Source: Ramlibacter sp. (lineage in GTDB: Bacteria > Pseudomonadota > Gammaproteobacteria > Burkholderiales > Burkholderiaceae_C). From it: a stretch of DNA of 43,699 nt. Positions within the stretch are counted from its first letter, which is position 1, and every line of letters starts with the position of its first letter. Positions 2,716 to 39,512 of the stretch are shown here, piece by piece. A program made the translations under genes and the position numbers. The stretch covers positions 1 through 43,699 of the forward strand of contig NZ_JARXAB010000113.1 in assembly GCF_029866045.1 (NCBI RefSeq). Reading direction: 5' to 3'. The notes below the pieces were generated by a model. That model made no database searches, had not been told where the DNA came from, and was given only the letters and a program-made list of their open reading frames with translations.

Positions 2716-2724
2716 GGGCAGGCC

Positions 2725-5700: not shown

Positions 5701-8700
5701 TGGTTCAGCCAGGATGTGTGGGAGTGCCAGCCGCTGCCGCTGGCGCCGACGGGCCACCCCGCTTGGCTCGTGCTGGGGGGTTCCTCAGCAGCAGGCGCAG
5801 GCATTCGCCGGGCGCTGGTCGCGGCCGGTGTTGAGTGCCTGCCGGAGGACGCGGGCCTGTCACGACACCCGCCGCCGGCGGTAGTGCTTCTTTTGGGTGC
5901 GCTCGATGGCGACAGCCCGGGTCCGCTCTGGCCCCCTTCATACGAGCGGGCTGAGGGGCAGGAGAGGCAGGAGAGGCAGGAGACGGTGCAAGGGCATCCA
6001 GGGCAGGTTGGACCGGAGCAAGCGGTCCCCGAGTCGGGCGCCCTGGCCGGCCTTCGGGCGCAGCAGGCCGCGGCTTTTGAGCCGGCGATCGGTCTGGCGC
6101 GCCAGTGGCTCGAGGCCGGCATCGAGGCGCCCTCGCGCTGGCTCTTCGTCACCGCGGGTGCCTTGGCGGTGTCGGGCCTGCCCCCGCGGTCACCCGCGCA
6201 GGCCCTGGCTTTGGGGCCAGCGCTGGTGATCCCGCGTGAATTGCCCGGTGTGCAGGCGCGGCTGGTCGATCTCGACCCCGATGCCGAGCCCGCCACCTTG
6301 GCCGACTGGCTGCGCTCGGAGGCCGCTGCGGATGCGGCTTGGGCTGACCCGCTTCCTTCGCCTGTGGTGGCCTGGCGGCAGGGCCAACGCTGGGTTCGTC
6401 GCCGCGCGACTGCGGCACCACCCGAGCCGGCCATGCCGCCGGGCCTGCGCTTGCGTCACGGCGGCATTTACCTGATCACCGGCGGACTGGGGGGCCTGGG
6501 CTTGACCCTGGCGAATTGGCTGGCGCGCCGTTGTGCGCCCCGGCTCGCGCTGGTCGGCCGCCATCCGCTGCCGACGGAGCGGCAGTGGGAGCTGCAGGCC
6601 CTCGAGGCCGCTGGCGCGCAGGTGCAGGTGTTTTGCGCCGACGTGTCCGACCCCGCCCAGATGGCCCAGGTGGTCCACACCTGCGCGCTGCGTTGGGGAG
6701 AGATTCACGGGGTCTTCCACGCAGCCGGCGACATGGGCGACGCGTCGCTGGCGCAGCGGCCACTGGCCGAGATGCGCCGCCTGATTGCGGGCAAGGCCGG
6801 TGGTGCGCTGGTGCTGGACCGCCTCTTGCCCGAGCCCATGGACTTGTTCGTGGTGTTCTCGTCGACCAGCGTGTTGCTGGGCCCGCCCGGTCAGGTCGAC
6901 TATGTGGCCGCCAATGCGGTGCTGGAATCGGTTGCCGCCCGCCGGCCAGACGGCTTGGCGATTCGCTGGGGCGTGTGGGCGGACCGGGGCATGGCGGCGC
7001 GGCGCGCCGGAATGGAGCAGACGCCGCCAGCGCCTGTCACACGGACCGGCGCGCGCCCGGCCCTGGGCGTGCAGGTCGATGCGCGCCCGCTCGAGGATGC
7101 GCACGCCAACGCGTACTCCCTGTTGGGTGTGCACTCCCATGCGCACCCCCTGCTGGATGCGCACTCCGACGCGCACCCCCTGCTGGGTGCGCGGGTCACG
7201 GCGACCGGCAGCCCCTGCTTCGAGGTGCTTCTCGCGCCCGACGCGCTGTGGTCGCTGCGCGAGCACCAGGTGGCAGGGCGCCCCGTGCTGCCGGGGACCG
7301 CCTACCTGGAGATGGCGCGGGCTGCGATGGCCTCCATCGAGACGGATGCGGCCATCCGGCGCGCCACCCGAACGCCGCGCAGGGCTGAAGGCCAGAACGA
7401 CGCGGCCTGGTTGGTCGTTCGCGACTGGGCCTGGGAGGCGGCGATGGTCTTTGCAGACGCACCCCGGCGCGTGCGCCTGACGCTCGATGCGGTGCGGGGC
7501 ACACAGGAGACGCACTCCAGGCCGGGTGCAGGCGATGCAAGCCGAGTCCATCCCATCAAGCAAGCCTGTGAGTCAAGCCCGGTATCCCCTGCGCCGACAG
7601 GCTGGGACCTGCGCATCGACAGCCTTGGCCCGGGCGAGACCACGTGGACCCGCCATGCGCGCGGTCGCCTGGCCTGGGTGGGCGCAGCGACAGATGCGGT
7701 CAAGGCGCCCCCTGCGAGGCGGGTGCCTGGCCCCTGGACGAGGGCGCAGGCACCCCAGGCGGCGCACCCCGCACTCACGCTGGGGCCGCGCTGGGATTGC
7801 CTGGAGGGCGTAGCGCGCGGGGAGCGCGTGCAGCGCGCGCAGGACACGGGCCACATGGCAAGCACGGAGCGAATGGGTGCGACCGAGGTCAACGGGTGGT
7901 CATGGGCCCGTCGCGACGTCGATGCATCGCCTGCGTGTCCCGCTTCGACGGTGCTGCCAGTCGCACGTCTGGCCCTCGCGTCCGAATTCGCACCCGACCT
8001 TGCGCAGTTCGCCTGGCACCCCGCGCTGATGGACATCGCGCTCACCATGGGCTTGCCGGCCCGTCAAGCCGGCGAGCGAAGCGAGCAGGCCGGGCAGGGC
8101 GATCAGGACGACCTCGTAGCCCTGCTCTATGCGCCGGTGGCCCTGGCTGAGGCCTGCCTGCCGCCGGCGCTGCCGGGGCGGCTGGTCAGCGTGTGCACCC
8201 GCAGGGAACGGCTCTCCGGCGGCCGGCTGTCGCTGGACGTGCAACTGCAAAGCACGGAGGGCCCGGTTCTCGGCTGGGTGCGGGGCCTGGTGCTGAAGCC
8301 GGTGGATCCCGCAGGGCTGGCGCGCCAGGACACGCCGCCCCCGGGCGCCAGCGTGTTCGCCATCCGGGCCCTGCAGGCGCTGGTGGCGGGCGGCATCCGC
8401 GCCGAGGAAGCGTCTGCCGTCTTCGAGCGGGCGCTCGGATCGGCTGCGCCGCTGGTCACCGTGTCGTCGATGGACCTGGCCCGCTTGCAGGAGCGGTTCT
8501 CGCCTCCTGTTGGCGGAGCGCTTTGCGTTGGTACCGAAGCAGCCACGCGGTTGCTGCCAGGAAGGGCGGCAGCGCTGGATGGCTCGCCCATGCCGCCCGT
8601 GCCAGAGGGGGCATGCCGGCCGGCTTCGCAGGTCCGATCAGACGTTCCCGCTCCTTCGGCAGCCGCCCTCACGCCGGTCGAGGCCGCCCTCGCGCAGGCC

Positions 8701-10077
8701 TGGCGCGAACTGCTCGGCGTGGCGCAGCCCGGACCCGAAGACGACTTTTTTGCCCTGGGCGGCCACTCCCTGGTGGCGGTGCGCCTGTTCGCGCGCCTGC
8801 GCCGGGAGTTGGGCGTCGACCTGCCGCTGTCGACGCTGTTCGAAGCGCCCACGCTGGCCAGCCTGGCTGCGCGTGTGACGGCCGCACAGCCCGCGCCGTC
8901 GGCACCGTCTGCGCCGGCCACCCGAAGTGGCAGTGGCAGTGGCAGCGCCGCGCCGCCGACGGATCGTGCGCGTCCGGTGCCCGGCGCGCCAGGCGCTGCG
9001 CAGACAGATCCGACGGCGCATCAGAGCGTCGATCCGATCGGCGACGAAAGAGCCGATCAACGAGCCGATCAAAGATCTGGTCAGGCGTCCGATCACACCG
9101 CGGCTCCGAGGACACCCGCGCCCTGGTCCCCGCTGGTGAACCTCCGTCCCGGTCCCCGGCCCGCCGAAGGAACCCACCTCCCGAGCCGTCCGCCCCTGTT
9201 TTGCGTCCATGGCGCCGGCGGCAATGTGCTCAATTTCCGGCTCCTGGCCGACAAGCTCTCGCCCGACCAGGGCTTTTACGGCCTGCAGGCTCAGGGCGTG
9301 GACGGACGTCTGGCGCCGCTGCCCAGCGTCGAGGCGATGGCAGCGCAGTACCTCGCCGCCCTGCGCGAGGTCTGCCCCGAGGGGCCCTATCGCCTCGCGG
9401 GCTATTCGGCTGGCGGCGTGATCGCGATGGAGATGGCGCGCCAGCTCCAGGCCGACGGGCAGCGGGTTGATCTGCTGGCGATGATTGACACCCTGTGCCC
9501 GGTCGCCGCACGCCAGCGGCTGCCCTGGTGGCGGCGCCTGTGGCTGATGCGCCATTGGTCGCTGCGCTTCGCGCTGGGTTGGCCGGTGAGGCGCCTGCAG
9601 GGGCGAGGTAACAACGCTCGCCACGCGCAGGCGCTGGCCGCGCGCGCGCGCGGCGAGGCGCTGCCGCCCGAGCTGGCCGAGGCCGTGCTGTTTCGCAACT
9701 TCATCGAGGTGCAAGCGCGCTACCAGCCACCGGTCTGGAACGGCGATCTGCTGCTGATCAAGGCGCGCCAGGCCGAGGTGCCCTATCTGGCGGCCGGCCC
9801 CTGCCTGGGGTGGGAGCGTTGGGTACGAGGCCGCATCGAGAGCCGGGATGTGGGCGGTTCGCACTTTTCGGTGATGCGCGAGCCAGGGCTGGGCGAACTG
9901 GCCAACGCCCTCCAATCCGCACTGGATAAGCGCGATGGGGTACCGTATCGTCCATGGCCACCACGCACCGCCCCCCGTCCTCTTGGCAACTCGGCTGGCG
10001 AATGCTCCGGCGCGACTTGCGCGCCGGCGAGCTGGGCCTGGTGGTGGCAGCCATCCTCCTGGCGGTGGCGGCGCTGA
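2725..10077 (+). CDS. Type I polyketide synthase module, KS-AT-KR-DH-ACP-TE
   Basis: A 2450-residue modular PKS. Ketosynthase ~8-430 has Cys186 (TACSTSL), His322 (EAHGTGT) and His360 (SNIGHL). Acyltransferase ~560-900 has Ser690 in GHSAGE and VAAHS around His789; this is neither the usual malonyl HAFH nor methylmalonyl YASH signature, so the extender is not called. Ketoreductase ~945-1420 has TGGLGGLG, Ser1380, Tyr1393 and Asn1397 and looks active. A dehydratase-like double hotdog follows the KR (HxxxGxxxxP with His1514; HPALMD with Asp1770, but Thr where Gln/His is usual). ACP Ser2015 and a thioesterase with Ser2228 (GYSAGG), Asp2255 and His2380 complete it. It probably extends the chain from the upstream NRPS and releases the product. 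KR before DH is unusual. The last ~40 codons overlap the next gene in another frame and look non-native; the TE fold should end near residue 2400. Confidence 0.93.
7090..7209 (+). repeat. 30-bp tandem repeat between KR and DH of the PKS
   Basis: Four 30-bp units, decaying at the edges, encode the decapeptides [30 protein letters not shown] and [10 protein letters not shown]. The middle two are nearly identical in DNA. They form a His/Asp-rich linker joining the ketoreductase to the dehydratase-like domain. Confidence 0.88.
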
Positions 10078-17749: not shown

Positions 17750-19210
17750 ATGATTTCCCGCGAACCGACCCTCGAACGCCTGGACACCGCCCGGCGCCTG
17801 CTGCTCGAGCCTTTTGGCCTGACCGAGTCCGACCTGACACGCGCCCTGGGCGAAATCACCTCGCACCGGGTTGACGACGCCGACCTCTATTTCCAGTACA
17901 CCCGCAACGAGGGCTGGAGCCTGGAGGAGGGCATCGTCAAGACCGGCAGCTTCAGCATCGACCAAGGGGTGGGCGTGCGTGCAGTGAGCGGCGAAAAAAC
18001 TGCCTTCGCCTACTCCGACGACATCTCGCTGGCCTCCCTCCTCGACGCCGCCCGCACGGTCAGGGCCATCGGCGCAGCCGGCGGCAAGGCCCGGGTCAAG
18101 ACCCCGGCGCGCAAGGTGGCCGCCAGTCGCTCGCTCTATGCGGGCCTCGACCCGATCGCCACCCTGGACAGCACCGCCAAGGTCGAGCTTCTGGGCAAGG
18201 TTGAAAAGCTCGCCCGCGCCCGTGACCCGCGCATCGTGCAGGTCATGGCGGGTCTCGCTGCCGAATGGGACGTGATCATGGTGGCCCGCGCGGACGGCAC
18301 CCTCGCCGCCGATGTGCGCCCGCTGGTGCGGCTGTCGGTGAGCGTCATCGCCGAGCAGGCGGGCCGGCGTGAGTCGGGCGCTGCGGGCGGCGGCGGCCGC
18401 TTCGGCCTGGCCTATTTTGACGACGCCCGGATCACCACCTATGTGGATGAGGCGGTCAAGGCTGCCCTCACCAACCTCGAGTCACGTCCGGCCCCGGCTG
18501 GCGAAATGACCGTGGTGCTTGGCCCCGGCTGGCCCGGCGTCTTGCTGCACGAAGCCATCGGCCACGGCCTCGAAGGCGACTTCAATCGCAAGGGCTCGAG
18601 CGCGTTCTCCGGCCGTATCGGTCAGCGTGTGGCCGCCAAGGGCGTCACCGTGCTCGACGACGGCACCATTGCCGACCGTCGCGGCTCGCTCAACGTCGAC
18701 GACGAGGGCCATGCCAGCCAGCGCAACGTTCTCATTGAGGACGGCATCCTGCGCGGCTACATCCAGGATTCGCTCAATGCCCGCCTGATGGGTGTCAAGG
18801 CCACCGGCAACGGTCGGCGCGAGAGCTATGCGCACATTCCCATGCCGCGCATGACCAACACCTACATGCTCAGTGGCGACAAGGCGCCCGAGGAGATCGT
18901 GGCCAGCATCAAGAAGGGGCTGTACGCCACCAACTTCGGCGGCGGCCAGGTCGACATCACCTCGGGCAAGTTCGTCTTTTCCGCCAGCGAGGCCTACTGG
19001 GTCGAAAACGGCAAGATCCTCTACCCGGTCAAGGGCGCCACCCTGGTCGGCAACGGCCCGGACGCGCTCACTCGCGTGTCCATGATCGGCAACGACATGG
19101 CGCTCGACTCCGGTGTGGGTACCTGCGGCAAAGAAGGTCAGAGCGTGCCGGTGGGCGTGGGCCAGCCCACTCTGCGCATCGACGGACTGACCGTCGGCGG
19201 TACCGCCTAA
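17750..19210 (+). CDS. tldD: TldD metalloprotease subunit
   Basis: This 486-residue cytoplasmic zinc metalloprotease acts with PmbA (TldE) in a heterodimer that degrades unfolded peptides. The metal-binding HEAIGHGLEGDF motif lies near residue 266, followed by FSGRIGQRVAAKGVTVLDDGT and the C-terminal RRESYAHIPMPRMTNTYM and GKEGQSVPVGVGQPTLRI regions that characterise TldD. Length fits. In E. coli, TldD/PmbA removes the leader peptide of modified microcin B17, which matters because a microcin B17-like operon lies about 12 kb downstream. tldD itself is a widespread housekeeping gene, so proximity alone proves nothing. No pmbA is visible in the window. Confidence 0.95.
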   Translation: MISREPTLERLDTARRLLLEPFGLTESDLTRALGEITSHRVDDADLYFQYTRNEGWSLEEGIVKTGSFSIDQGVGVRAVSGEKTAFAYSDDISLASLLDAARTVRAIGAAGGKARVKTPARKVAASRSLYAGLDPIATLDSTAKVELLGKVEKLARARDPRIVQVMAGLAAEWDVIMVARADGTLAADVRPLVRLSVSVIAEQAGRRESGAAGGGGRFGLAYFDDARITTYVDEAVKAALTNLESRPAPAGEMTVVLGPGWPGVLLHEAIGHGLEGDFNRKGSSAFSGRIGQRVAAKGVTVLDDGTIADRRGSLNVDDEGHASQRNVLIEDGILRGYIQDSLNARLMGVKATGNGRRESYAHIPMPRMTNTYMLSGDKAPEEIVASIKKGLYATNFGGGQVDITSGKFVFSASEAYWVENGKILYPVKGATLVGNGPDALTRVSMIGNDMALDSGVGTCGKEGQSVPVGVGQPTLRIDGLTVGGTA

Positions 19211-29607: not shown

Positions 29608-30987
29608 ATGCCCGACCTGTCCTATCTCTTTACCGACCTCCGCGGCTTTCTCATGGGCGTCAACCGCCTGGGGGAGGCCCCGCCCTCCGAGACAAGCCCG
29701 TGGCCGCGCGCCAGCGTGTCAGGCGCGCTCATTCCGGGCTGGGAAAGTGATGCCAATTCAGACCTTCAACTGATCGCTGATCCGCAGTCCGTGTTTGTCG
29801 ACGGCCTGGCCGGGGATCATCGGTTCACCTTCGCACAGCCCGTTCTCCCTGGGCAGGCCCTGGGCAGCTACCCCAAGGATGTGCGCGCTGTCGCCACCCG
29901 CGCCGAGGCCTGGTTGCGGGACACCGGCCTGGCCGACGAAGCCCGTGTGGGCATCGAGCTCGAGTTCCACCTCTTCAAGGGAATCCGCTTTGCGACCTCG
30001 ATGCACCAGAACCTGGTCGAGATCCAGAGTCAAGATGGGTGGGACAACAACGCCGCCGAATTGGGCACCGGGTATCGGGTTGGACACCGCTCGATGCAGT
30101 ACCACCTGGGGCCGACGGATTCCTTCGCCCCGCTGCGCGAAGCCATGGGCCGACGGATCGCGGGTCTGGGCATTGCCGCCACCCACCACGGACATGAGGC
30201 CGGCCCCAGCCAGCAAGAGATCGCGCTGGCACCAGTTGGCCTGCGTCAGGCGGCTGACCAGATCCAACTGGTCAAGCACTTGGTCCGCACAGAGGCCATC
30301 GCCGCCGGCATGACAGCCACTTTCATGCCGCGGCCCCAGGCCTATGCCGAGTCCAATGGCCTGCACATCAACTTCTCGCTCTGGCGCGATGGACGCAATG
30401 TGTTTTTTGATCCCCATGCGCCCTCAGGGCAAATGCGGCTCAGCCGGACGGCCCTGGGGTTCATTGCGGGGGTGCTGCGTCATCTGCGGCCGCTCAATGC
30501 GCTGACCAACCCCACCGTCAACAGCTACAAGCGCCTCAATCACTTTTACTCGCTGATGCGCCCGGCCGGTTGGGGCCTTCACAACCGCACCTGCGCAATC
30601 CGCGTGCCCCACTTCGACGGGCCGCAGGATTGCCGCCTTGAAATCCGTTTTCCCGACGCCTCGGCCAACCCCTACCTGGCCTTGGCGGCGCTGCTGTGCG
30701 CAGGGGTCGATGGCATCCGCCAGGAACTCGCTCCGCCAGAGGCGGAGTCGGCGGCGCACAAGTGGTACGAGGCGCCTTTTCATGCTGGCCATTGCCACCC
30801 TCAGGCCATGGCCCCCGACCTGCGGGTGGCGCTGGAGGCCTTGGTCAATGGCCATGGCTTTCTCACCGGCTCGGGCGTTTTTCAGCAGGCCCTTGTGGAC
30901 GCACTGGTGCAGGACGCGAGCTTTTTTTGGCACTGGGCTGCAACCACGCCAGCGCCTCAGGAGTACCAGGTTTTTTTCGGACATTGA
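29608..30987 (+). CDS. Glutamine-synthetase-family ATP-dependent glutamate-amine ligase
   Basis: A 459-residue GlnA-fold enzyme. Visible motifs: VGIELEFHLF (metal-binding Glu), TTHHGHE-type GHEAGPSQQEIAL, ESNGLHINFSLW (compact form of the NGSGMHxHxS loop), NALTNPTVNSYKRL, and the substrate/ATP Arg block CAIRVPHFDGPQDCRLEIRFPDASANPYLALAALL. It is close in size to GlnA or PuuA but diverges around the NG-H loop, so it may glutamylate an amine or peptide and not ammonia. It ends 93 bases before the peptide precursor on the same strand. That raises the possibility of a tailoring, supply or self-protection role in the peptide system; a separate metabolic role, for example in polyamine use, is equally open. 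Confidence 0.85.
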   Translation: MPDLSYLFTDLRGFLMGVNRLGEAPPSETSPWPRASVSGALIPGWESDANSDLQLIADPQSVFVDGLAGDHRFTFAQPVLPGQALGSYPKDVRAVATRAEAWLRDTGLADEARVGIELEFHLFKGIRFATSMHQNLVEIQSQDGWDNNAAELGTGYRVGHRSMQYHLGPTDSFAPLREAMGRRIAGLGIAATHHGHEAGPSQQEIALAPVGLRQAADQIQLVKHLVRTEAIAAGMTATFMPRPQAYAESNGLHINFSLWRDGRNVFFDPHAPSGQMRLSRTALGFIAGVLRHLRPLNALTNPTVNSYKRLNHFYSLMRPAGWGLHNRTCAIRVPHFDGPQDCRLEIRFPDASANPYLALAALLCAGVDGIRQELAPPEAESAAHKWYEAPFHAGHCHPQAMAPDLRVALEALVNGHGFLTGSGVFQQALVDALVQDASFFWHWAATTPAPQEYQVFFGH

Positions 30988-30989
30988 GC

Positions 30990-31009
30990 GCTGCTGCCGT
31001 CAGAGCAGC
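30990..31009 (+). promoter_or_regulatory. Hairpin after the synthetase-like gene
   Basis: gctgct and agcagc form a perfect 6-bp stem with an 8-base loop just after the stop codon. There is no T tract, so it is at most a weak terminator or an RNA processing or stability element. Confidence 0.35.
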
Positions 31010-31039
31010 CATGCCAGGCTTGCGCATGTCGCGCGAGGG

Positions 31040-31055
31040 CGTGCCGTGCGGCACG
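31040..31055 (+). promoter_or_regulatory. Hairpin upstream of the precursor gene
   Basis: cgtgcc and ggcacg form a 6-bp stem with a GTGC loop, followed by tttgactt and the precursor's Shine-Dalgarno. It may separate expression of the precursor from the upstream gene or stabilise the precursor mRNA. Confidence 0.4.
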
Positions 31056-31065
31056 TTTGACTTCG

Positions 31066-31073
31066 AAAGGGAG
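31066..31073 (+). promoter_or_regulatory. Strong ribosome binding site of the precursor gene
   Basis: AAAGGGAG lies 7 bases before the ATG at 31081. It decides the start: the in-frame TTG at 31057 would add eight residues (MTSKGRFL) and place this site inside the coding region. Confidence 0.8.
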
Positions 31074-31080
31074 ATTTCTG

Positions 31081-31278
31081 ATGAGTGTTCAGCAGATCGA
31101 ATTCGGAAAAGTCGTTTATGAGTCCCCCATGCCAGCCAGCCCGCAGGGCGGCGGCGGCGGTGGTGATGGCGGCGGTGACTCTGCCGCCGCCGGCTGTGGC
31201 GGTTGTGGCGGCAGTGGCAGTGGGAGCGGCGGGTGCGGTGGCAGCGGCAGTGGCGGCTGCGGCTCCAACGAGGCCTGA
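31081..31278 (+). CDS. Microcin B17-like azol(in)e peptide precursor (McbA-like)
   Basis: A 65-residue ribosomal peptide precursor. The leader (~1-22) begins MSVQQIEFGKVVYES; Glu7-Phe8-Gly9 and hydrophobics at 11-12 align position for position with what I recall of the McbA leader (EFGVVL), where Phe8 docks on the synthetase. The core is a Gly spacer (six Gly, interrupted by Asp29 and Asp33), an AAA turn and the segment GCGGCGGSGSGSGGCGG followed by SGSGGCGSNEA. Cys39, 42, 52 and 60 could become thiazoles and Ser45, 47, 49, 55, 57 and 62 oxazoles. All ring sites are separated by at least one residue, so no fused bis-azole can form, unlike microcin B17. It is followed by McbB-, McbC- and McbD-like genes in mcbABCD order. 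Strong Shine-Dalgarno upstream and a 14-bp hairpin just downstream suggest high precursor expression. Activity and target are unknown. Confidence 0.92.
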   Translation: MSVQQIEFGKVVYESPMPASPQGGGGGGDGGGDSAAAGCGGCGGSGSGSGGCGGSGSGGCGSNEA

Positions 31279-31286
31279 TGAAACCA

Positions 31287-31318
31287 GCCGGGCGCGGGTC
31301 TTCTGGCCTGCGCCCGGC
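31287..31318 (+). promoter_or_regulatory. 14-bp hairpin between precursor and modification genes
   Basis: gccgggcgc pairs perfectly with gcgcccggc, extended inward by gggtc/ggcct (two G-U pairs) to a TTCT tetraloop. It starts 8 bases after the precursor stop and ends 11 before the next ATG. No T tract follows. Such structures in peptide operons often protect the short precursor message or allow partial read-through; that role is inference. Confidence 0.75.
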
Positions 31319-31329
31319 AAAGGCGTCAC

Positions 31330-32250
31330 ATGAACAATTTTCGCGTCCACCCCTTTCATCTCCAGGATCGACCCGATGGCCCCCTGCTGGTGACCTCGCG
31401 CCGAATCATTGAACTCGCGTCCGCTCCCCTGGCCTCCTTCCTCCGCTGGCTGGCCGACGATTCCGCGGCCGGTACCCGTCCCCACATCGTCCGAGCGCGC
31501 CTGGAGGCGCAGTTGCTGTCCGAAGGTCTGTCGGTCGACAGCGCCCTGGCCTTTCTCACCTCACACGGTGTGCTCCAGGATTTGGGCTTGCTGGGGACGC
31601 GGTTGTCCTGTTTGACCGTGTTTTCAAGGGGTGAGCCCATCGCGGCGGAGTTTGAGTCGCAGTGCCGCGAGGTTCTACCCCTGATGCTTCGGCACCTCTC
31701 GCTGCCGTCCGATCTCAACGCCGCCAGCACGCCACCGCCTCACGCGGGGGGCGGTCCCGAACTGTGCCTGCTGCTGCTGGAAGACTACGACGAGCCCTCG
31801 GCGCAGACCTTCCACCGTTGTCTGCGCCAGATTCCCGAGGCGGCAGGCCTCGTCGTCTGGTTTCGACTGCGCGCCTTGTGCATCAGCACCCTCTACGTCC
31901 CCTCGCAAGGAACCCCCTGCCACTTCTGCGACATGGGTTGGGAGGGGCGGGCCCGCGCCAAGACGCCTGGCACCCATGCCTTGGCCAAACTGCTCGGGGG
32001 GTTCGAGGGCAGCAATTCCCGAGCACCGGGTGCGCGTCTGCTGCGGCCTGCCGACCGCACGGTGGCCGCGGCCTACCTGGTTCATCTGGTCGAGGGCCTC
32101 ACCGCCTTGTCACCGCAGCCCCTGCTACAGGATGCAGTCACTGTGCGCCGTGAGTTGCTGATCGACGGACTCACCCTGACCCAGCAGGCTTCAGCCCACT
32201 GGCCGGGATGTGATTGCCAATTTGAGTTTCTGGCGGGGCCCTCCGAATGA
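31330..32250 (+). CDS. McbB-like E1-homologous/leader-binding subunit of the azoline synthetase
   Basis: A 306-residue protein, near the ~295 I recall for McbB. In microcin B17 synthetase McbB binds the precursor leader through an N-terminal winged-helix-like domain and supports the McbD cyclodehydratase; it is E1-like without an ATP site. Here the N-terminal ~100 residues (FHLQDRPDGPLLVTSRRII, SVDSALAFLTSHGVLQDLGLLG) fit a winged helix, and a zinc tetrad is visible as Cys197/Cys200 (PCHFCDMGWEGRARAKT) and Cys294/Cys296 (WPGCDCQFEF). The start has AAAGG just upstream, at the foot of the hairpin. Its stop overlaps the next start (ATGA). The assignment relies on these cysteines, size, position and neighbours. 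Confidence 0.82.
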   Translation: MNNFRVHPFHLQDRPDGPLLVTSRRIIELASAPLASFLRWLADDSAAGTRPHIVRARLEAQLLSEGLSVDSALAFLTSHGVLQDLGLLGTRLSCLTVFSRGEPIAAEFESQCREVLPLMLRHLSLPSDLNAASTPPPHAGGGPELCLLLLEDYDEPSAQTFHRCLRQIPEAAGLVVWFRLRALCISTLYVPSQGTPCHFCDMGWEGRARAKTPGTHALAKLLGGFEGSNSRAPGARLLRPADRTVAAAYLVHLVEGLTALSPQPLLQDAVTVRRELLIDGLTLTQQASAHWPGCDCQFEFLAGPSE

Positions 32251-33065
32251 ACCCGAGGCCTGCATTGGCGCACCAGCGCTACTCTGAGTTGGCTGACGAA
32301 GCCGTCTGTCTGGACGTGCTGGCATTCAATGCGCACGCCCACTACGCGCTATTGCCGCAACTGGGGCATGCCGTTCGCTTGACCCACCTTTCCGACGCGC
32401 ACTTGGCGAACCTCGTTTTTCGTGAGTCAGACGTGGCCGGTTGCGGAGAGCGCATCCGCATCGATACCGTGGTCGGGGAGGGCGTGGCATGGCGGCAGCC
32501 GTCGCCTGCGCGCTTCGACCCGGCACCGCTCGGGTTCGCGGATGTCTTGGACCTGCTGGCCCGCACCCTGGTTTCGCAGCCATCACAGCCCGGTACGGCG
32601 CGCATGCCCTATCCCTCGGGTGGTGCCCTCTATCCGGTGCTCCCCTTTCTTTGCAGAACCTCCCATGCCGTTACAGACTGGCCTGCGGGGCAGGATATTT
32701 TTCAGGTCCTCCCCTTCAGCCGCAGCCTGAACCCGTTGCCCGTGCGTGCCGATGCCTCCACGCTCCTGGCGGCGCTCTCCGGTGACGCCGCAGGCACGCT
32801 GGGCCAGCCCGCCTTTGCCCTTGTCTACGCGGTGCATCTGGACAAAGCCCTCTTCAAATACCGGCACCGCGGATTTCGACTCGCCCAGATGGAGGTGGGC
32901 TCCATGTACCAGCGTGTCACCGAGCAGGCCCAGGCCGTGGGGCTGGCCAGTCGGGTGTGGGCTGGCTTCAGTGACTGCCGCGTGGCGTCCCGCCTGGGGA
33001 TCGATGCCACACAGCTGCTGCCCATGGTGGTCCAGTTTCTGGGTCAGCCGGCCAAGCCATGCTGA
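32247..33065 (+). CDS. McbC-like FMN-dependent azoline dehydrogenase
   Basis: A 272-residue nitroreductase-fold enzyme, the same length as I recall for E. coli McbC, that would oxidise thiazolines and oxazolines to thiazoles and oxazoles. Family features are ARMPYPSGGALYPVLPFLC (FMN-binding SGGALYP, ~120), FQVLPFSRSLNPL, LFKYRHRGFRLAQMEVGSMYQ with Lys204-Tyr205 matching the conserved catalytic Lys-Tyr pair of these dehydrogenases, and a C-terminal GLASRVWAGFSD. It overlaps the McbB-like gene by four bases and precedes the YcaO gene by 7, implying coupled translation. Its presence predicts aromatic azoles in the product. Confidence 0.9.
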   Translation: MNPRPALAHQRYSELADEAVCLDVLAFNAHAHYALLPQLGHAVRLTHLSDAHLANLVFRESDVAGCGERIRIDTVVGEGVAWRQPSPARFDPAPLGFADVLDLLARTLVSQPSQPGTARMPYPSGGALYPVLPFLCRTSHAVTDWPAGQDIFQVLPFSRSLNPLPVRADASTLLAALSGDAAGTLGQPAFALVYAVHLDKALFKYRHRGFRLAQMEVGSMYQRVTEQAQAVGLASRVWAGFSDCRVASRLGIDATQLLPMVVQFLGQPAKPC

Positions 33066-33072
33066 GCACACC

Positions 33073-34290
33073 ATGCTGAGATTCCCCGGTGATGGATGGA
33101 GCCAGCCGGCCCGGGTGGTGCTCGACGCCACCCTGGGCACGCGCAGGCCGCGCTATGCCTGGGCCACGAGCCGAACGGGTGCCAGCGCCAGCGGCTCGGG
33201 CCTGGCTGCCGACAGTCTGGTCCGCACGCTGGGCGAGTATTTTGAGCGGCGGCATTTCTATCACGAGGTGCGCGGACAAGCGCAGGGAACGCTGGACGCC
33301 TGTCGCCAGAGCGAGCCCGGCGAGAGCCTGGTCGATGATTTGCACCACGCCCTGGCGCAGACCTGCCAGCCCGATCACCTCAGCCTTTTGCGGCAGCATG
33401 CATTCCGTCTCAGCCCTGTCGTCCGGCTGCCGGAGTGGCGCGCGGTGTCGGCGCCCACCGTGCTGTTTTCCGTCGGCGGGCCGGGCCTGGAGGACGACTC
33501 CGCCTACCTGCCTAACCGGGACACCACCGGCTGTGCCGCTCACTTCGATTTGGCTCGTGCCTTGCAGGGCGCGATGCGCGAGTTCGTGGAGAGGCAGTAT
33601 TTGCTGCGCTATTGGCTGGTGGGCGCAGGTGGCCGCGATGTCACGCCGGCCGCACTGGCCGGTCTGTGTCCGCTGGGTACCCTGCTGGCGCAACACCTGG
33701 CCCAGCGGGGTGAGCTGCGTTTCATTGAACTGTCCTTGGGGGAGGTCGCTGCGGCCATCGTGCTGGCGGTCTATCGCGGCGAGCCAGATGGGCCGGTCCG
33801 TTATTGCGTCGGTCTGTCCTGTACCGCTGAGATCGGCTCTGCTGCCGATCGGGCGCTGCGAGAGCTTTGGCAAAGCCATGTGTTTCTGACCAATATGGCC
33901 GAACCCGGCGCCGAGGCACTGGTGCACGACCGCTATCACCGCTATTTCATCGAGTGCAACACCAGGGACACGGCGCGCGAACTCCTGGCTGGAGCGCCGT
34001 ACGCCGACGCCGAGGCCAACGGCCGCTTGGGTGCCCCCCAGGCTGGCACCTGCTCTCAGAGCGACGAGGCGTTCGCCGCCTCGGTCTACCGCCGCTTTGG
34101 CCCCTTGCTGGCCTACATCGCGCAGACCACCGTGCTGCATCGACGGATCTGGTGCGTGCGCGTGCTGAGCCCGCGGGCCTTCCTCCATCTGGATAACGCT
34201 TCCCACTTCAACCTCGACTGCGCCTTCTCGCGTGACTTCGCCGCCCTGATCCGTCCGGAGCGCCTGGCCAGGATGGTGCCCTTTCCCTGA
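33073..34290 (+). CDS. McbD-like YcaO cyclodehydratase
   Basis: A 405-residue YcaO-family enzyme that would use ATP to activate the peptide backbone and cyclise Cys and Ser side chains into azolines. YcaO ATP/Mg motifs are SGSGLAADSLVRTLGEYFERRHF (~38-60, first acidic cluster), TTGCAAHFDLARALQGAMREFVERQ (~150-175) and SCTAEIGSAADRALRELWQ (~257-275). The C-terminus RMVPFP is a shortened form of the Pro-rich tail important in azoline-forming YcaO enzymes. The start ATG 33073 gives the family length; the frame continues upstream into the previous gene with no stop, and that extension is rejected. Together with the two preceding genes it completes a B-C-D synthetase. Confidence 0.9.
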   Translation: MLRFPGDGWSQPARVVLDATLGTRRPRYAWATSRTGASASGSGLAADSLVRTLGEYFERRHFYHEVRGQAQGTLDACRQSEPGESLVDDLHHALAQTCQPDHLSLLRQHAFRLSPVVRLPEWRAVSAPTVLFSVGGPGLEDDSAYLPNRDTTGCAAHFDLARALQGAMREFVERQYLLRYWLVGAGGRDVTPAALAGLCPLGTLLAQHLAQRGELRFIELSLGEVAAAIVLAVYRGEPDGPVRYCVGLSCTAEIGSAADRALRELWQSHVFLTNMAEPGAEALVHDRYHRYFIECNTRDTARELLAGAPYADAEANGRLGAPQAGTCSQSDEAFAASVYRRFGPLLAYIAQTTVLHRRIWCVRVLSPRAFLHLDNASHFNLDCAFSRDFAALIRPERLARMVPFP

Positions 34291-34311
34291 GCGCCTATTC
34301 GTCCCACCCCG

Positions 34312-35421
34312 ATGACCCGCTGGAATGAGAACCTTGTACCCCGCACGGCTGGCGGCCTATCGGTCGTCGCGGCAGGCCCGCAAGACCTGCCCTGCGTGAG
34401 CCGGCTCTTTACGCGCTACCTGGCGACGACTGCTTTCAGTGAACACGGCCCGGACGCGGCGCGCCTGCAGGCCTGGCTGCACGAGATCCTGAGCTCGCAC
34501 CTGTGGCTGGTGCTGCTGCTTCGATCGCCCCAGTGCGAGTGCGAGGGCGAGGGCGAGTGCGAGGGCGAGGGCGAGGGCCGGGGTCAGGTGCAGGGCTTCG
34601 CGCTGGCGCAATACGGGGGCTATGAGGTCGACCCAGAGCAGAGAATCTTGCGCTGCCGGCACCTGTATGTCGATCCTTCGGTGGCCTGCTCTTTGCGCTC
34701 TGCCAGCGCACTGCTCGTCGACGCCCTGGTCGAGGCCGCCCGGCGCAGCCCGCAACTGGTCGACGTTTTCCTGATCACCTTTGGCGCCCAGCGGCTCGAC
34801 GCCTTGCGCCGCGCCTGCGAGCGGCGGGGTTTTCGCAGGATCGGGACCCAGCATCTCGGTTTGTGCACGCAGGCGCCACGCCTGCCGAATGGTCCGCGTC
34901 CGCCACCCCGTGCTGTGGAACTGCCTTCGGGTCTGCATCCGATTGCATCGCGCCAGGAAGTCGACGCCGCTCTCTATCGGCAGTTGCGGCGCCAGGCCGA
35001 GGCCTTCTTCCGTGAAAGCGGCCGCACGGGTCTGGGGCCGATCGAACTCGACCTCGACCGGCTGATCGCGCAGGCGCTCAGACCCGATTCCCGTGGGCGC
35101 CCCGCCGCCTTGCTGGCCCTGCGAGACGGCCAACTGGCCGGCTTCATTGCAGCCGCCCCCGCATGGCTGGCGCCTCTGGAGTGGCGTCTGTTGCAAAGCA
35201 GCTTCTTCTACGTGGACCCCGCCCATCGCGGCGGCCGGGTGGGGCTGTCGCTGTTCGAGGGCCTGTCGCGCTTGGCCGCCAGCCACGGATTCGAAGGCGT
35301 GTACCTCGGGACCTCGGGCGAAATCCAGACACCGCGTACCTGCCGCCTGCTGGCGCTGCGCGGATACCGCCATCAGGGTGATGTGCTGGCGTTGCGGCTG
35401 CAGACTTCGGCGGGCGCGTAA
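34312..35421 (+). CDS. Tandem GNAT acetyltransferase-like protein in the peptide operon
   Basis: A 369-residue protein with two GNAT-like halves. The first (~20-185) has a strand-turn pattern around FALAQYGGYEV and HLYVDPSVACSLRSASALLVDAL but no clean CoA loop. The second (~200-365) has SSFFYVDPAHRGGRVGLSLFEG, close to the RxxGxG/A acetyl-CoA pyrophosphate loop with Arg at the third-Gly position, then LGTSGEIQTPRTCRLLALRGYR. It lies between the YcaO and exporter genes, 21 bases after the former and 5 before the latter. Candidate roles: acetylating the product or its N-terminus as tailoring, or acetylating for self-immunity. Residues 75-89 are an unusual CECEGEGECEGEGEG run that interrupts the first half. 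Confidence 0.75.
   Translation: MTRWNENLVPRTAGGLSVVAAGPQDLPCVSRLFTRYLATTAFSEHGPDAARLQAWLHEILSSHLWLVLLLRSPQCECEGEGECEGEGEGRGQVQGFALAQYGGYEVDPEQRILRCRHLYVDPSVACSLRSASALLVDALVEAARRSPQLVDVFLITFGAQRLDALRRACERRGFRRIGTQHLGLCTQAPRLPNGPRPPPRAVELPSGLHPIASRQEVDAALYRQLRRQAEAFFRESGRTGLGPIELDLDRLIAQALRPDSRGRPAALLALRDGQLAGFIAAAPAWLAPLEWRLLQSSFFYVDPAHRGGRVGLSLFEGLSRLAASHGFEGVYLGTSGEIQTPRTCRLLALRGYRHQGDVLALRLQTSAGA
34534..34578 (+). repeat. Hexanucleotide microsatellite in the GNAT gene
   Basis: Forty-five bases of tgcgag/ggcgag hexamers encode alternating Glu with Cys or Gly. The unit is a multiple of three, so copy change alters protein length but not frame. Confidence 0.9.
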
Positions 35422-35426
35422 GCCGC

Positions 35427-36704
35427 ATGAAGCGTCCCGCCGGCCTGCTGCACCTGGTCTGGATCAGCCTGGCGCTGATGCTGGCCGGCTTGGTTGCAGG
35501 TGCGGCTTGGCTGCCCATCGACCAGGTGGTCCGTGCGCCCGGGGTGGTTTTGGCCACCGAACTGGCCAGCCCGCAATGGGCGCCCTTGGCCGGTCGCATC
35601 GCGCAGGTGCATGTCAAGGACGGCGATCGGGTCCGGCGTGGCGAGCGGCTCGTCACCATCGCGCCAGAGCCCTCTCTGCCTGCGCTGGACGAGGCCCGGC
35701 TTCGCTGGGTGCGCGCGGCCGCGCTCCATCGCGCCTATGCCGGCGCCGCCGCCCGGCAGATGGGTGCAGCGCCGCAGGAGGTGGCAGAGCCCGATGACGA
35801 AGCCATCGCCTTGGCCGTTTCACGCAGCGTCGAGGCGCAGCGCGCGCAGCGCCACGCGCAGCGGCTGGCGCAGGAGCGCGACTTGGCGGAGGCACAGGCC
35901 GCCCTGGCGGTCGAGGAGGCTGGGCGCAGGCGCGCACTGGCCCTGCTGCCCCTGGCCCGGGAGAAGGTGGTCAGGCATGAGAAGTTGGCGCTTGAGGGCT
36001 TTCTCTCCGAGACGGCACTGCTGGCGCTGCGGCAGGAGATGGTCGAGTCGCAGGAGCAGGCCGGACTCGCGGAGGCCCGGGTGCTGCGCGCAACCGAAGA
36101 CCTGGCCCGACGCCGTGCGACCCAGGCCCTGCTGCTGGCAGACCAGCGCCGCACCTGGGCCGAACGCAGCGAGGAGGCTCAGCAGTCTTACCTGCTTGCG
36201 CGGCGTGAGTGGTTGCGGCTGCGACAGCTTCATGCCGGCGGCGCAGTCGAGGCGCCCATTGACGGTGTGATCGAGCAGATGTCGCCGCAGCTGGCAGGCA
36301 ACCTCCTTCGCGCGGGCGATCGGCTGATGGCAATTGCGCCTGACGCGGCGCGCTACGAGATCCAACTGCGGGTGCGCAACGAAGACTTTCCCTTTGTCCA
36401 GGTCGGGCAGGCGGTGGAGGTGAAGTTCGATGCCTATCCCTATACCGTCCATGGCACTTGGCCCGCGCAGGTGCTGCGCTTGATCCGCGAGCCACTGCCT
36501 TCCCCCGAGGGCATCGCCGACTACACCGTGGTGGCGGCGTTTTCTGAGGCTGCCGCTCCCACGGGCTTGGCCGCTGGCCTGCCCCCGCTGCGCACCGGCA
36601 TGAAGGTGCAGGCCGATGTCGTCGTCGGCCGCAGGCTACCGCTGGAGATCTGGCTGGACCCCTTTATCCGTCTGGGGCGCGAGGCGCTACGGGAGCATCG
36701 GTGA
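35427..36704 (+). CDS. HlyD-family membrane fusion protein of the peptide exporter
   Basis: A 425-residue periplasmic adaptor for an ABC exporter. One N-terminal membrane helix (~8-30) is followed by a lipoyl-type half (SPQWAPLAGRIAQVHVKDGDRVRRGERL), a long Ala/Glu/Arg-rich coiled coil (~80-285), the returning lipoyl half (GGAVEAPIDGVIEQMSPQLAGNLLRAGDRL) and a beta-barrel region with VRNEDFPFVQVGQAVEVKFDAYPY, an HlyD hallmark. It would link the inner-membrane ABC protein to an outer-membrane TolC-type channel, which is not encoded here. Its stop overlaps the GTG start of the ABC gene by four bases. Confidence 0.92.
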   Translation: MKRPAGLLHLVWISLALMLAGLVAGAAWLPIDQVVRAPGVVLATELASPQWAPLAGRIAQVHVKDGDRVRRGERLVTIAPEPSLPALDEARLRWVRAAALHRAYAGAAARQMGAAPQEVAEPDDEAIALAVSRSVEAQRAQRHAQRLAQERDLAEAQAALAVEEAGRRRALALLPLAREKVVRHEKLALEGFLSETALLALRQEMVESQEQAGLAEARVLRATEDLARRRATQALLLADQRRTWAERSEEAQQSYLLARREWLRLRQLHAGGAVEAPIDGVIEQMSPQLAGNLLRAGDRLMAIAPDAARYEIQLRVRNEDFPFVQVGQAVEVKFDAYPYTVHGTWPAQVLRLIREPLPSPEGIADYTVVAAFSEAAAPTGLAAGLPPLRTGMKVQADVVVGRRLPLEIWLDPFIRLGREALREHR

Positions 36705-38539
36705 GCGCCAGCGGACAGTCCCCTGATCCTGCTCTGGTCGGCTGGCGGCCCGAGCGACTGGCCTGCACCGTGCTGGCCACCTTGTTATCCCTGGTGGCGC
36801 TCATGCCGGCGCTGACCGTCGGCCTGATCCTTGACCGTGTCATTCACACCCGGGCGATGGCCACGCTGGCGGCGGTCCTGATCGCCTTCCTGTTTTTCCA
36901 TCTTTGCGAGCTGGTGTTTGCCTGGCTCAACGACCGTCTGCTGCTTCACATGAGCCAGGCCGTGGCTGCGCGGGAGGAGGATGCTTTTTTGGCGCGCCTG
37001 GCCCGCCTTGGCTATCAGGATCTCGAGTCGCTCCCGCCAGGCCTGGTGCAGGAGCGGTATGCGGCACGCAGCGGCGAAGTCCGCTTTCTGATTGACTGGG
37101 CGGTGGGCCGGGTGGCGCTGGGCGTTGGGGCGGGCGTCACCGCCACGGCTTTGCTTCTGGTACATGCCGGTCTCGGTGCGATGGTGCTGGCGATGAGCAT
37201 GGCCTATGGGCTGCTGCTCCTGGCCGCCCAGGGCCCACTGCGGGATGCCGCGCGGGCGGTGCAGGCACTGCGCGACAAGCTCGCCACCACCGCACAGGAG
37301 GCGTTTGCCGGATCGCCCACGCTGCGGGCGCATGGCGCGTGGAGCGCGTGCTTGCATCGCTGGCAGAGAGAGCGGCAAGGGCACGACGCAGCGGTGGACC
37401 GTCATAGCCAACGGGTCCTGCGCCGCAACCTGATCGGGCTGGCCTATGAGCGTCTGACCCAGGCCGCCATTTTGGGTCTGGGCGCGATGGAGGCCATGGA
37501 GGGTCGCCTGTCCGTTGGCCAGTTGGTCATTCTGAATTTGCTGTTCAGGCAGTTCTCTGGCCAGTTGCGTCACATGGCCCAGTTGATCCAGCGGCGCGTC
37601 GTCTATCAGGCCTCGCGGCGGGCCGGCGCGGCCTTTTGGGAGACCCTGCGTGCGGACGCGCCGGCCGCTGATCGGGGGGGCGATGACGAACCCTGCGCTG
37701 TGCGCGGTTCGGGTGCGAACTCGGCTCACCAAAGAGCGAACTCCGAGGCCTACCCCGCCCTGACCGTGCGCGATCTCGGGTTCAGGGCGCCAGAGGGCCA
37801 GTGGGTGCTGCGCGGCCTCGATTTCGGATTGCCTGCGGGGGCAACCTTGGGCTTGGTCGGCGCTTCTGGTGCTGGCAAGTCCACCTTGCTCAAGTTGCTC
37901 TGCGGCTTGTACCGGCCAACGCAGGGCGGCGTCTGGCGCGAGGGCCTTCCATGCGATCGAATGCCTGGCAACGTTTATTTGTCCCAGAAGGAGTATTTGT
38001 TTGGCGGCACTGTGGGCGACAACATCCTCTTGGGCCGGCCAGCGTCAGGCGCAGGCCCGGATTGGCTGCTCAGTGAGTTGGACTCGCCACCCGACCGCAG
38101 ACGCGACGTGTCCGGCGCCCGGGCCGACGGCACTGGGCCCACCACCACGTCGGGCGGGTTGGATCGCCTGCCGCAGGCGAGCGATGTGGCCTCCGGCCTG
38201 TCCGGTGGGGAGCGCCAGCGCGTTTTTCTGGCGCGGGCCCTGCAGTCCACCCAGGCGATGGCCTCGACCGGCCTCTTCCTCGATGAGCCAACCACCGCAC
38301 TTGACGCGGCCCGTTCCCAGGCGGTCGCGAGCCGCATGTGGCGGGCGGCCCGCGAGGTCAATCTGCTCGTTTTTGCCACCCACGACCTGGCCTTGGCGGC
38401 CGAGGCCGACTACCTGCTGTGGCTGGCCGAGGGCAGGCAGCTGGCCTTCGGGCCGAGCCAGGTGGTGCTGGCGGCCTGGCGCGCGCAGGCCGGTGTGGGC
38501 AAGGACACGGCCACGGCCACAGCCGAGGCCGCGGTCTGA
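36701..38539 (+). CDS. ABC exporter, fused membrane and ATPase domains
   Basis: A 612-residue half-transporter with about six membrane helices (~20-320) and a C-terminal ATPase: Walker A LVGASGAGKSTLLKLLCG (Lys393), Q-loop VYLSQKEYLFGGTVGDNIL, signature LSGGERQRVFLARAL, Walker B GLFLDEPTTALD and the switch His in FATHD. There is no N-terminal C39 peptidase, so it cannot remove the leader itself; cleavage must be done by another protease such as TldD/PmbA. The start is GTG at 36701 in a GTGA overlap with the HlyD stop. Microcin B17 is exported by the smaller McbE/McbF pair, so this is a different exporter type. The gene ends one base from the convergent livM-like gene. Confidence 0.92.
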   Translation: MSASGQSPDPALVGWRPERLACTVLATLLSLVALMPALTVGLILDRVIHTRAMATLAAVLIAFLFFHLCELVFAWLNDRLLLHMSQAVAAREEDAFLARLARLGYQDLESLPPGLVQERYAARSGEVRFLIDWAVGRVALGVGAGVTATALLLVHAGLGAMVLAMSMAYGLLLLAAQGPLRDAARAVQALRDKLATTAQEAFAGSPTLRAHGAWSACLHRWQRERQGHDAAVDRHSQRVLRRNLIGLAYERLTQAAILGLGAMEAMEGRLSVGQLVILNLLFRQFSGQLRHMAQLIQRRVVYQASRRAGAAFWETLRADAPAADRGGDDEPCAVRGSGANSAHQRANSEAYPALTVRDLGFRAPEGQWVLRGLDFGLPAGATLGLVGASGAGKSTLLKLLCGLYRPTQGGVWREGLPCDRMPGNVYLSQKEYLFGGTVGDNILLGRPASGAGPDWLLSELDSPPDRRRDVSGARADGTGPTTTSGGLDRLPQASDVASGLSGGERQRVFLARALQSTQAMASTGLFLDEPTTALDAARSQAVASRMWRAAREVNLLVFATHDLALAAEADYLLWLAEGRQLAFGPSQVVLAAWRAQAGVGKDTATATAEAAV

Positions 38540-38540
38540 C

Positions 38541-39512
38541 TCAGGCCCGCGCCGCCAAACGCTGCCGTTCTCGCCAGGCGATCAACTCGCCAACCATTCC
38601 CTTTCGGAAGGCCAGTACGCACAGGACAAAGATCGCGCCGATGATCACGGTCACCCAGGCGCCCACCTTGTCGGCCAGCAAGTTTTGCAGGCCGACCACG
38701 ATGCCCGCACCCAGCACCGGGCCGAAGAGGGTGCCCACCCCGCCCAGCAGGCTCATGAGAATGACCTCTCCGGACATGGACCAGTGCACGTCCGAAAGCG
38801 TGGCAAAGCCCATCACCAGGGTCTTGAGCGACCCCGCCAAACCAGAGAGCGCCGCTGAGAGAACAAAGGCCAGGAGTTTGTAGCGGTCTACCTCGTAGCC
38901 CAGGGAGATGGCGCGCGGTTCGTTCTCGCGGATCATCTTGAGCACCTGCCCGAAGGGCGAGGTGACGATGCGGCCAATGGCCAGGAAGCAGGCCAGGAAG
39001 ACGGCCAGCACCACGTAGTACAGCGTGAGGTCGTCCTGCAGCGGCAGCAGACCGAAGAGGGCGCCGCGCCCAACGCCTTGCAGCCCGTCTTCGCCACCGG
39101 TGAAGGGCGCCTGCAGGCATAGGAAGAACACCATCTGCGCCAGGGCCAGGGTGATCATCGCGAAGTAGATGCCTTGCCTGCGGATGGCCAGCAGACCCAT
39201 GCCCAGCCCCAGGAGCGCCGCTACCGCCATGCCCGCCAGCAACGCGACCTCGGGTGTCCAGCCCTGGCTCTTGATGCACCAGCCGGTCACATAGGCGGAA
39301 AAGCCGAAGAAGGCTGCGTGTCCAAAGGACAGCAAGCCTGTAAACCCGAGGAGCAGGTTGAAGGCGCAGGCGAAGAGCGCAAAGCACAGCAGCTTCATCA
39401 CGAACACTGGGTACAGGCCCAAAAAGGGCGCGGCCAGTGCCAGGGCCAGCAGGCCGGCGTAGGTAGCCCGGGTGAGGGCGCGGTCTGTGGCGGTATCCGA
39501 TATACGCTTCAT
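38541..39512 (-). CDS. livM: Branched-chain amino acid-type ABC transporter permease LivM
   Basis: This 323-residue inner-membrane permease is the second membrane subunit of a liv-type uptake system. It has about nine helices with GFTGLLSFGHAAFFGFSAY, AIRRQGIYFAMITLALAQM and SPFGQVLKMIRENEPRAISLGY, the last two being LivM hallmarks. The start MKRISDTATDRAL is chosen: it follows the livH stop by one base, whereas the longer frame to 39575 would overlap livH. It is the last gene of the operon on this strand. Confidence 0.93.
   Translation of the reverse strand: MKRISDTATDRALTRATYAGLLALALAAPFLGLYPVFVMKLLCFALFACAFNLLLGFTGLLSFGHAAFFGFSAYVTGWCIKSQGWTPEVALLAGMAVAALLGLGMGLLAIRRQGIYFAMITLALAQMVFFLCLQAPFTGGEDGLQGVGRGALFGLLPLQDDLTLYYVVLAVFLACFLAIGRIVTSPFGQVLKMIRENEPRAISLGYEVDRYKLLAFVLSAALSGLAGSLKTLVMGFATLSDVHWSMSGEVILMSLLGGVGTLFGPVLGAGIVVGLQNLLADKVGAWVTVIIGAIFVLCVLAFRKGMVGELIAWRERQRLAARA

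Follow-up and report, generated by a model that had tools for sequence, protein, structure and literature searches.

The DNA analysed here (in the following "the window") comprises 43,699 nt of the forward strand of Ramlibacter sp. (GCF_029866045.1, contig NZ_JARXAB010000113.1). It spans all of contig C20 of a draft genome of 3.85 Mb, which consists of 182 contigs, is 93% complete and 5.1% contaminated. Between positions 31081 and 38539, the + strand carries an operon of seven genes in the order A-B-C-D-tandem GNAT-HlyD-ABC, which, as judged from sequence, is an McbBCD-type linear azol(in)e peptide system (Table 1). B and C as well as HlyD and ABC overlap by 4 bases, and the remaining gaps measure 51 (A/B), 7 (C/D), 21 (D/GNAT) and 5 bases (GNAT/HlyD). 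The original prediction had described a 65-residue Gly/Ser/Cys-rich precursor, followed with overlaps or tiny gaps by B, C and D and then by a tandem GNAT, an HlyD protein and a fused ABC exporter; each of these genes was found at the position it had been given. For comparison we used two related loci, L002 from a metagenome-assembled genome (MAG) of Ramlibacter sp. and L003 from a MAG of a Comamonadaceae bacterium, and all three DNA loci stem from draft or MAG assemblies. As a minor difference in layout, the start of D lies inside the end of C in L003 (7-base overlap, L003:3104-3110), where the window has a 7-base gap.

Table 1. Features of the azole peptide operon in the window, with the support for each assignment.
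Feature	Position	Strand	Support or remark
Likely ribosome-binding site (AAGGGAG)	31067..31073	+	7 bases 5' of the precursor ATG; sequence read
Precursor A, 65 aa	31081..31278	+	orthologs in L002, L003; likely orthologs P0037, P0038
RNA hairpin, A-B spacer	31287..31318	+	14 pairs, 4-base loop
Predicted McbB-like partner protein B (for leader binding and as partner of the cyclodehydratase), 306 aa	31330..32250	+	TIGR04424, PDB McbB, hhalign
Predicted McbC-like dehydrogenase C (azoline to azole), 272 aa	32247..33065	+	PDB McbC; TIGR03605
Predicted McbD-like YcaO cyclodehydratase D, 405 aa, ends MVPFP	33073..34290	+	PDB McbD, PF02624
Tandem-GNAT protein, 369 aa	34312..35421	+	PF00583, predicted fold
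HlyD-type periplasmic adaptor, 425 aa	35427..36704	+	TIGR01843, PF13437
Fused ABC exporter, 612 aa, GTG start	36701..38539	+	PF00664, PF00005

The precursor consists of the leader MSVQQIEFGKVVYESPMPASPQ, a Gly-rich spacer and a core that is Gly-rich as well and contains four Cys. A leader and a Gly/Ser/Cys-rich core are hence encoded adjoining the enzyme genes. In the core (residues 38-62), all ten Cys/Ser are preceded by Gly, an arrangement that 102 of 100,000 shuffles of this stretch reproduced. Within the last 45 residues of three precursors no pair of adjacent Cys/Ser/Thr exists, in contrast to three pairs in each of two enterobacterial McbA peptides. Consequently, a fused bis-azole is not expected in the product. 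Neither Pfam nor NCBIfam matched the precursor up to an E-value of 0.05, so that no nitrile-hydratase- or Nif11-like leader family was recognized, and comparison with PDB sequences delivered weak low-complexity matches and nothing else.

Compared with L003, the precursor gene shows silent changes in 24 codons and replacements in 2 (dN/dS 0.024); compared with L002, the counts are 5 and 2 (dN/dS 0.096). The precursor is under purifying selection. Searching with the leader half (residues 1-40) yielded two further precursors, P0037 and P0038, among 5 candidates. The E-value of P0038 is weak if taken alone (0.25). There are strong grounds, though no proof, that P0037 goes with the McbD homolog P0013 and the GNAT homolog P0031, and P0038 with the McbD homolog P0018 and the GNAT homolog P0033: within each trio the longest contigs agree in length (4968 for the first, 10196 for the second), and the linkage is drawn from this agreement alone. 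Across the five precursors (window, L002, L003, P0037 and P0038), the segment IEFG is invariant (5/5) and the core is almost wholly so, including nine Cys/Ser, and EFG recurs in the leaders of two enterobacterial McbA peptides. The cores of the likely linked precursors are near-identical, although the window McbD shares only 64% identity with P0013 and 52% with P0018.

Among the enzymes, C and D gave the clearest results. C matches the sequence of the solved McbC in the PDB with an E-value of 1e-47 over 252 residues, and with 272 aa it has the length of McbC. It contains the Lys-Tyr pair of McbC (K204-Y205), while its score against TIGR03605 (64.6 bits) is below the cut-off of 78.4. D matches the solved McbD (E 1.5e-37, D residues 12-405), is a YcaO protein (PF02624, 67.9 bits vs. 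a cut-off of 25.7) and represents the sole YcaO match of the genome at E 0.001. Its McbD-like C-terminal end MVPFP is invariant in 14 of 14 rows of an alignment (A2) comprising D and 13 of 16 homologs, with P0008, P0010 and P0015 left out. The similarity of B to McbB is far weaker: a single-sequence comparison with the solved McbB delivered an E-value of 0.005, and Pfam gave zero matches. Profile-profile comparison by hhalign, in turn, aligned residues 4-297 of B with McbB (97.8%, E 1.2e-12). In sequence alignments, C197, C200, C294 and C296 of B fall upon four McbB cysteines, which hold zinc in McbB. Another McbB profile match of B was discarded as circular, half of the profile rows being relatives of McbB, and a joint alignment of B, C and D (A1) as well as a scan with it revealed nothing further. 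The features named in the original prediction are thus borne out for C (Lys-Tyr pair, length) and D (YcaO); for B the predicted cysteines are in place, while zinc binding itself is presumed. The suggested search against known families came out strong for C and D and, for B, weak by sequence and clear by profile, and in NCBIfam and Pfam none of the three proteins aligned better with a family unrelated to azoline formation. We therefore count B as a putative McbB-type partner, C as a putative McbC-type dehydrogenase and D as a putative McbD-type cyclodehydratase.

The GNAT fold of the protein encoded downstream of D is backed by PF00583 and by a predicted-structure fold search, and the protein may serve in tailoring or self-protection. 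Its gene contains a frame-keeping hexamer repeat (GCGAGG, about 7 copies, window positions 34535-34578) coding for a Glu/Gly/Cys stretch, of which L002 has a shorter version and L003 none. The HlyD protein scored 166.8 bits against TIGR01843 (cut-off 208.65) and matches PF13437 too. The ABC exporter combines a membrane domain (PF00664) with an ATPase (PF00005), and Pfam detected no C39 peptidase in it. In NCBIfam it comes closest to the NHLM and LssB exporters, yet its scores remain far under the cut-offs (NHLM_micro_ABC1, 140 vs. 853 bits). Domains of TolC-family channels (OEP) occur elsewhere in the genome, with 10 domain matches on five contigs. The genome furthermore encodes TldD on the same contig as the operon (17750-19210; NF008006, 672 bits vs. 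a cut-off of 513) and PmbA, i.e., TldE, on contig C95 (NF008268, 492 bits vs. a cut-off of 438). The modified leader is trimmed by TldD/TldE in E. coli (PMC5810440). However, since these proteases occur in 60% of bacterial genomes (PMC5810440), their presence is permissive rather than evidence of a link to the operon.

All seven frames are intact in L002 and L003 as well, with dN/dS values of 0.02-0.27 across the genes, so that the operon is not a product of chance. The same finding speaks against a decaying or non-functional remnant. Such a remnant would be in line with the draft or MAG origin of the three loci and with a non-canonical loop in the GNAT protein (see below), but it would hardly show all seven frames open, at such ratios, in every one of the three loci, and we regard it as highly improbable.

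The spacer between A and B holds a conspicuous RNA structure. Its stem comprises 12 Watson-Crick and 2 G-U pairs, and the spacer (31279-31332) folds with -36.4 kcal/mol (z -6.2), while 0 of 200 shuffles were equally stable. The stem is kept in all three loci, with z at -5.6 for L002 and -4.6 for L003, yet as it is invariant among them, it receives no support from covariation. No T-run follows the hairpin; hence we do not call it a terminator. In peptide operons, hairpins of this kind increase the amount of precursor relative to the enzymes, and the one found here may likewise set the dosage of the precursor above that of the enzymes. The AAGGGAG motif 5' of the precursor gene is present in the window, L002 and L003. 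No sigma-70 promoter was detected in a scan of positions 30700-38900, where shuffles gave an expectation of 0.5; terminator-like sites numbered 9, compared to 5.4 expected (sd 2.7), and none of them coincides with the A-B hairpin. Rfam gave no matches at gathering scores in the whole window.

The clade is rare. Among 60 genomes from the genus, 3 encode protein C, counting the one that holds the window (the others being G006 and G1202). In wider scans, the own genome alone was positive among 399 genomes of the family, 399 of the order, 369 of the class and, employing an McbB model, 398 of the phylum, and a second Burkholderiales family gave 0 of 299 in a scan without positive control. The family, order, class and second-family scans scored the first 4-6 candidates per genome, so that misses are possible. 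Two weak matches (G025 and G026, 51 and 59 residues) were dropped as partial YcaO matches. On the protein level, 16 McbD homologs were obtained at 1e-3 among 7,996 scored candidates, drawn from 5.8 billion proteins; one of them, P0020, is labelled Cupriavidus basilensis. In a McbD tree of 17 rows, the window falls into a group of 10 rows supported at 89/89, and the enterobacterial rows stand separately (100/99). P0020, P0021 and P0022 were not resolved, and the phazolicin row forms a long branch of unsure placement. Plasmids delivered 137 McbD matches, all below 60% identity, three of which were inspected, and no relative of the GNAT protein; viral contigs contained no McbD relative.

The neighbouring genes are kept in the three DNA loci too: each has a glutamine-synthetase-like gene on the upstream side of the operon and a permease of the urea/branched-chain type on the downstream side. 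This would suit a locus on the chromosome that is passed on within the group. The shared metabolic neighbours, together with a core that stays nearly invariant while leader and enzymes diverge, are also what one would expect of an exported signalling or metal-binding azole peptide, i.e., a product that is no antibiotic and whose core is constrained by a receptor or by a metal. However, none of the seven genes encodes a receptor, a two-component system or an uptake protein, a conserved core fits an antibiotic with a single target as well, and the rarity of the locus (3/60) is equally compatible with an accessory weapon. A signalling or metal-binding role thus appears rather unlikely.

Some observations concern the flanks themselves. 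The glutamine-synthetase-like gene (29608-30987, + strand) ends 93 bases before the precursor gene and scores 293 bits against GlnA (cut-off 429). Homologs detected in 8 congeners share only 36-38% identity with it. The gene adjoins the operon in L002 and L003 too and, together with the downstream transporter, might be part of an amine or amide pathway. At the other end of the window (1-10077, + strand), one frame joins a luciferase-like monooxygenase domain of the MupA/Atu3671 family to part of an amino-acid adenylation domain, namely its second half (203-409 of the 409 profile positions). Since this frame remains open up to the edge of the contig, the missing first half may be encoded further upstream, with the monooxygenase separating the two halves. 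The second gene thereafter encodes a type I polyketide synthase.

If the product is an antibiotic, the question of its target arises. The operon could represent microcin B17 proper in a new host, a gyrase poison with immunity provided by the GNAT protein or the exporter alone. Synthetase and gene order are the same, the Gly-rich core has four Cys, and products of relatives from P. syringae act on gyrase (PMC7136475). However, no McbG-type pentapeptide repeat protein is encoded among the seven genes, and PF00805 had 0 matches in the 93%-complete genome, although the same search gave matches in 9 of 14 control genomes. The lack of adjacent Cys/Ser, and hence of a fused bis-azole, points in the same direction: small bis-heterocyclic compounds inhibit gyrase supercoiling at 50-500 µM, while single rings hardly do so (PMC3622597). 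This argument is not decisive, since none of the small compounds stabilised the gyrase cleavage complex and a microcin B17 fragment without one of the bis-heterocycles was still active (PMC3622597). In addition, the loss of C-terminal residues abolished the cleavage activity of microcin B17 (PMC3622597), and the window precursor ends with SNEA instead of a Ser-His-Ile tail. Taken together, we consider microcin B17 proper quite unlikely.

Targets are known for few McbBCD-type peptides, gyrase and the ribosome being those encountered in the papers covered. For mcb-like clusters without a pentapeptide gene, a non-gyrase target has been suggested, with translation as one candidate (PMC7136475), which would suit a ribosome-targeting peptide like klebsazolicin or phazolicin. 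In contrast, the last 40 residues of the window precursor contain 0 Lys/Arg, whereas the phazolicin precursor has 3; both the arrangement of the genes and the exporter are different, and in the McbB-like protein of the phazolicin producer all four cysteines that B keeps are replaced. A ribosomal target therefore seems unlikely to us.

We instead favour a narrow-spectrum antibacterial peptide, as the following model would explain. The precursor would probably be made in excess over the enzymes, because the stable hairpin separates its gene from theirs. B would bind the leader, probably via the IEFG segment, D would cyclise and C would oxidise, so that up to ten Gly-preceded Cys/Ser in the core would become isolated thiazole and oxazole rings; ring formation at these sites, nine of them conserved, is deduced from homology. 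By analogy to microcin B17, housekeeping TldD/TldE may then trim the leader until the rings are met. The acetyl group of goadsporin is added by an acetyltransferase, and in a comparable manner the tandem GNAT protein could acylate the freed N-terminal glycine; alternatively, it might protect the producer. The HlyD/ABC pair together with a TolC-type channel would export the product across both membranes. Within related bacteria, this product would most likely have a target different from the site on gyrase that microcin B17 uses. As a whole, this explanation, from operon type, maturation and GNAT to export, narrow-spectrum activity and non-gyrase-site target, appears probable to us, and it matches the earlier proposal of a functional antibacterial or signalling peptide system, which the locus would be.

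Several points weigh against this explanation. The full-length match of B to TIGR04424 (61.4 bits) misses the curated cut-off of 65. No GNAT partner was detected for the four McbD homologs that are most distant. In the C-terminal GNAT domain, the acyl-CoA loop, judged by the motif R/Q-x-x-G-x-G/A, is canonical in one of nine family members and non-canonical in eight, which weakens the idea of acylation. No immunity gene was recognisable, and given a draft genome with 93% completeness and 5% contamination, an McbG could sit in a gap. Finally, the antibacterial role is argued from analogy only. One might further speculate that the operon belongs to a separate betaproteobacterial class, whose isolated, Gly-spaced azoles would address neither the gyrase site nor the ribosome. 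Its tandem GNAT protein, lacking ordinary acetyl-CoA chemistry, would be an N-terminal-glycine acyltransferase using another donor or a peptide-binding immunity protein. This is a tentative idea, conceivable but not likely.

Within the explanation we favour, this rare and well-conserved operon should serve to produce and export a small ring-studded peptide related to microcin B17, and its product may well act on a target different from that of microcin B17. The near-invariant core without bis-azole sites, the type I-like exporter and the linked tandem GNAT protein point to a new product and possibly to a new target. With its short core and compact gene set, the system lends itself to a direct test.

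Related clusters are known from several groups of bacteria. Cox 2015 (PMC4603692) lists clusters for microcin B17 in E. coli and Pseudomonas and names NHLP clusters of Burkholderia, and Travin 2020 (PMC7136475) deals with lactazolicins and pseudomonad clusters. Among the matches listed for open-licence PMC papers, judged by titles and the starts of abstracts, none appears to describe the present gene set, while supplementary tables of surveys were not covered and may list it. Within that scope, the statement of the original prediction that no example had been described in this background holds.

Microcin B17 itself (mcbABCDEFG, plasmids of Enterobacterales) shares the A-B-C-D order, homologs of McbB, McbC and McbD, a Gly-rich precursor with an EFG-containing leader and core Cys that mostly follow Gly. 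It differs by the McbE (membrane)/McbF (ATPase) pair after mcbD and by McbG, which GNAT, HlyD and fused ABC replace here, in agreement with the predicted different export and tailoring set. The lack of bis-azole sites, the A-B hairpin and the unusual GNAT loop go beyond the original prediction. Furthermore, adjacent Cys/Ser sites exist there and not here, and the window McbD lies outside the enterobacterial clade. With neither an McbE/F-type pair nor McbG nor adjacent Cys/Ser, the predicted system is not microcin B17 proper. The microcin B17-like clusters of pseudomonads possess the McbABCD core, mostly without mcbG (PMC7136475; PMC8719888). By description they are set apart through McbE- and McbF-like proteins, with no GNAT or HlyD mentioned in the available part of that account (PMC8719888). 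Phazolicin and, by description, klebsazolicin share the three-part azole synthetase and an exporter, while phazolicin differs by Lys/Arg in the core and the order phzEACBD (PMC6783444). Goadsporin, compared by description too, is an azole peptide as well and bears an acetyl group at its N terminus (PMC5303826). In contrast to the product expected here, it also carries dehydroalanines. NHLP and Nif11 azole systems use an HlyD-type adaptor with an ABC exporter. These systems, including the NHLP clusters of Burkholderia, thus resemble the window in export type, and NHLM_micro_ABC1 is the best NCBIfam match of its exporter; however, their leader family was not recognized in the precursor, and the exporter stays far from the family cut-off. 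Taken together, the operon appears to be of the known McbBCD kind, while its exporter, its accessory gene and its core would set it apart.

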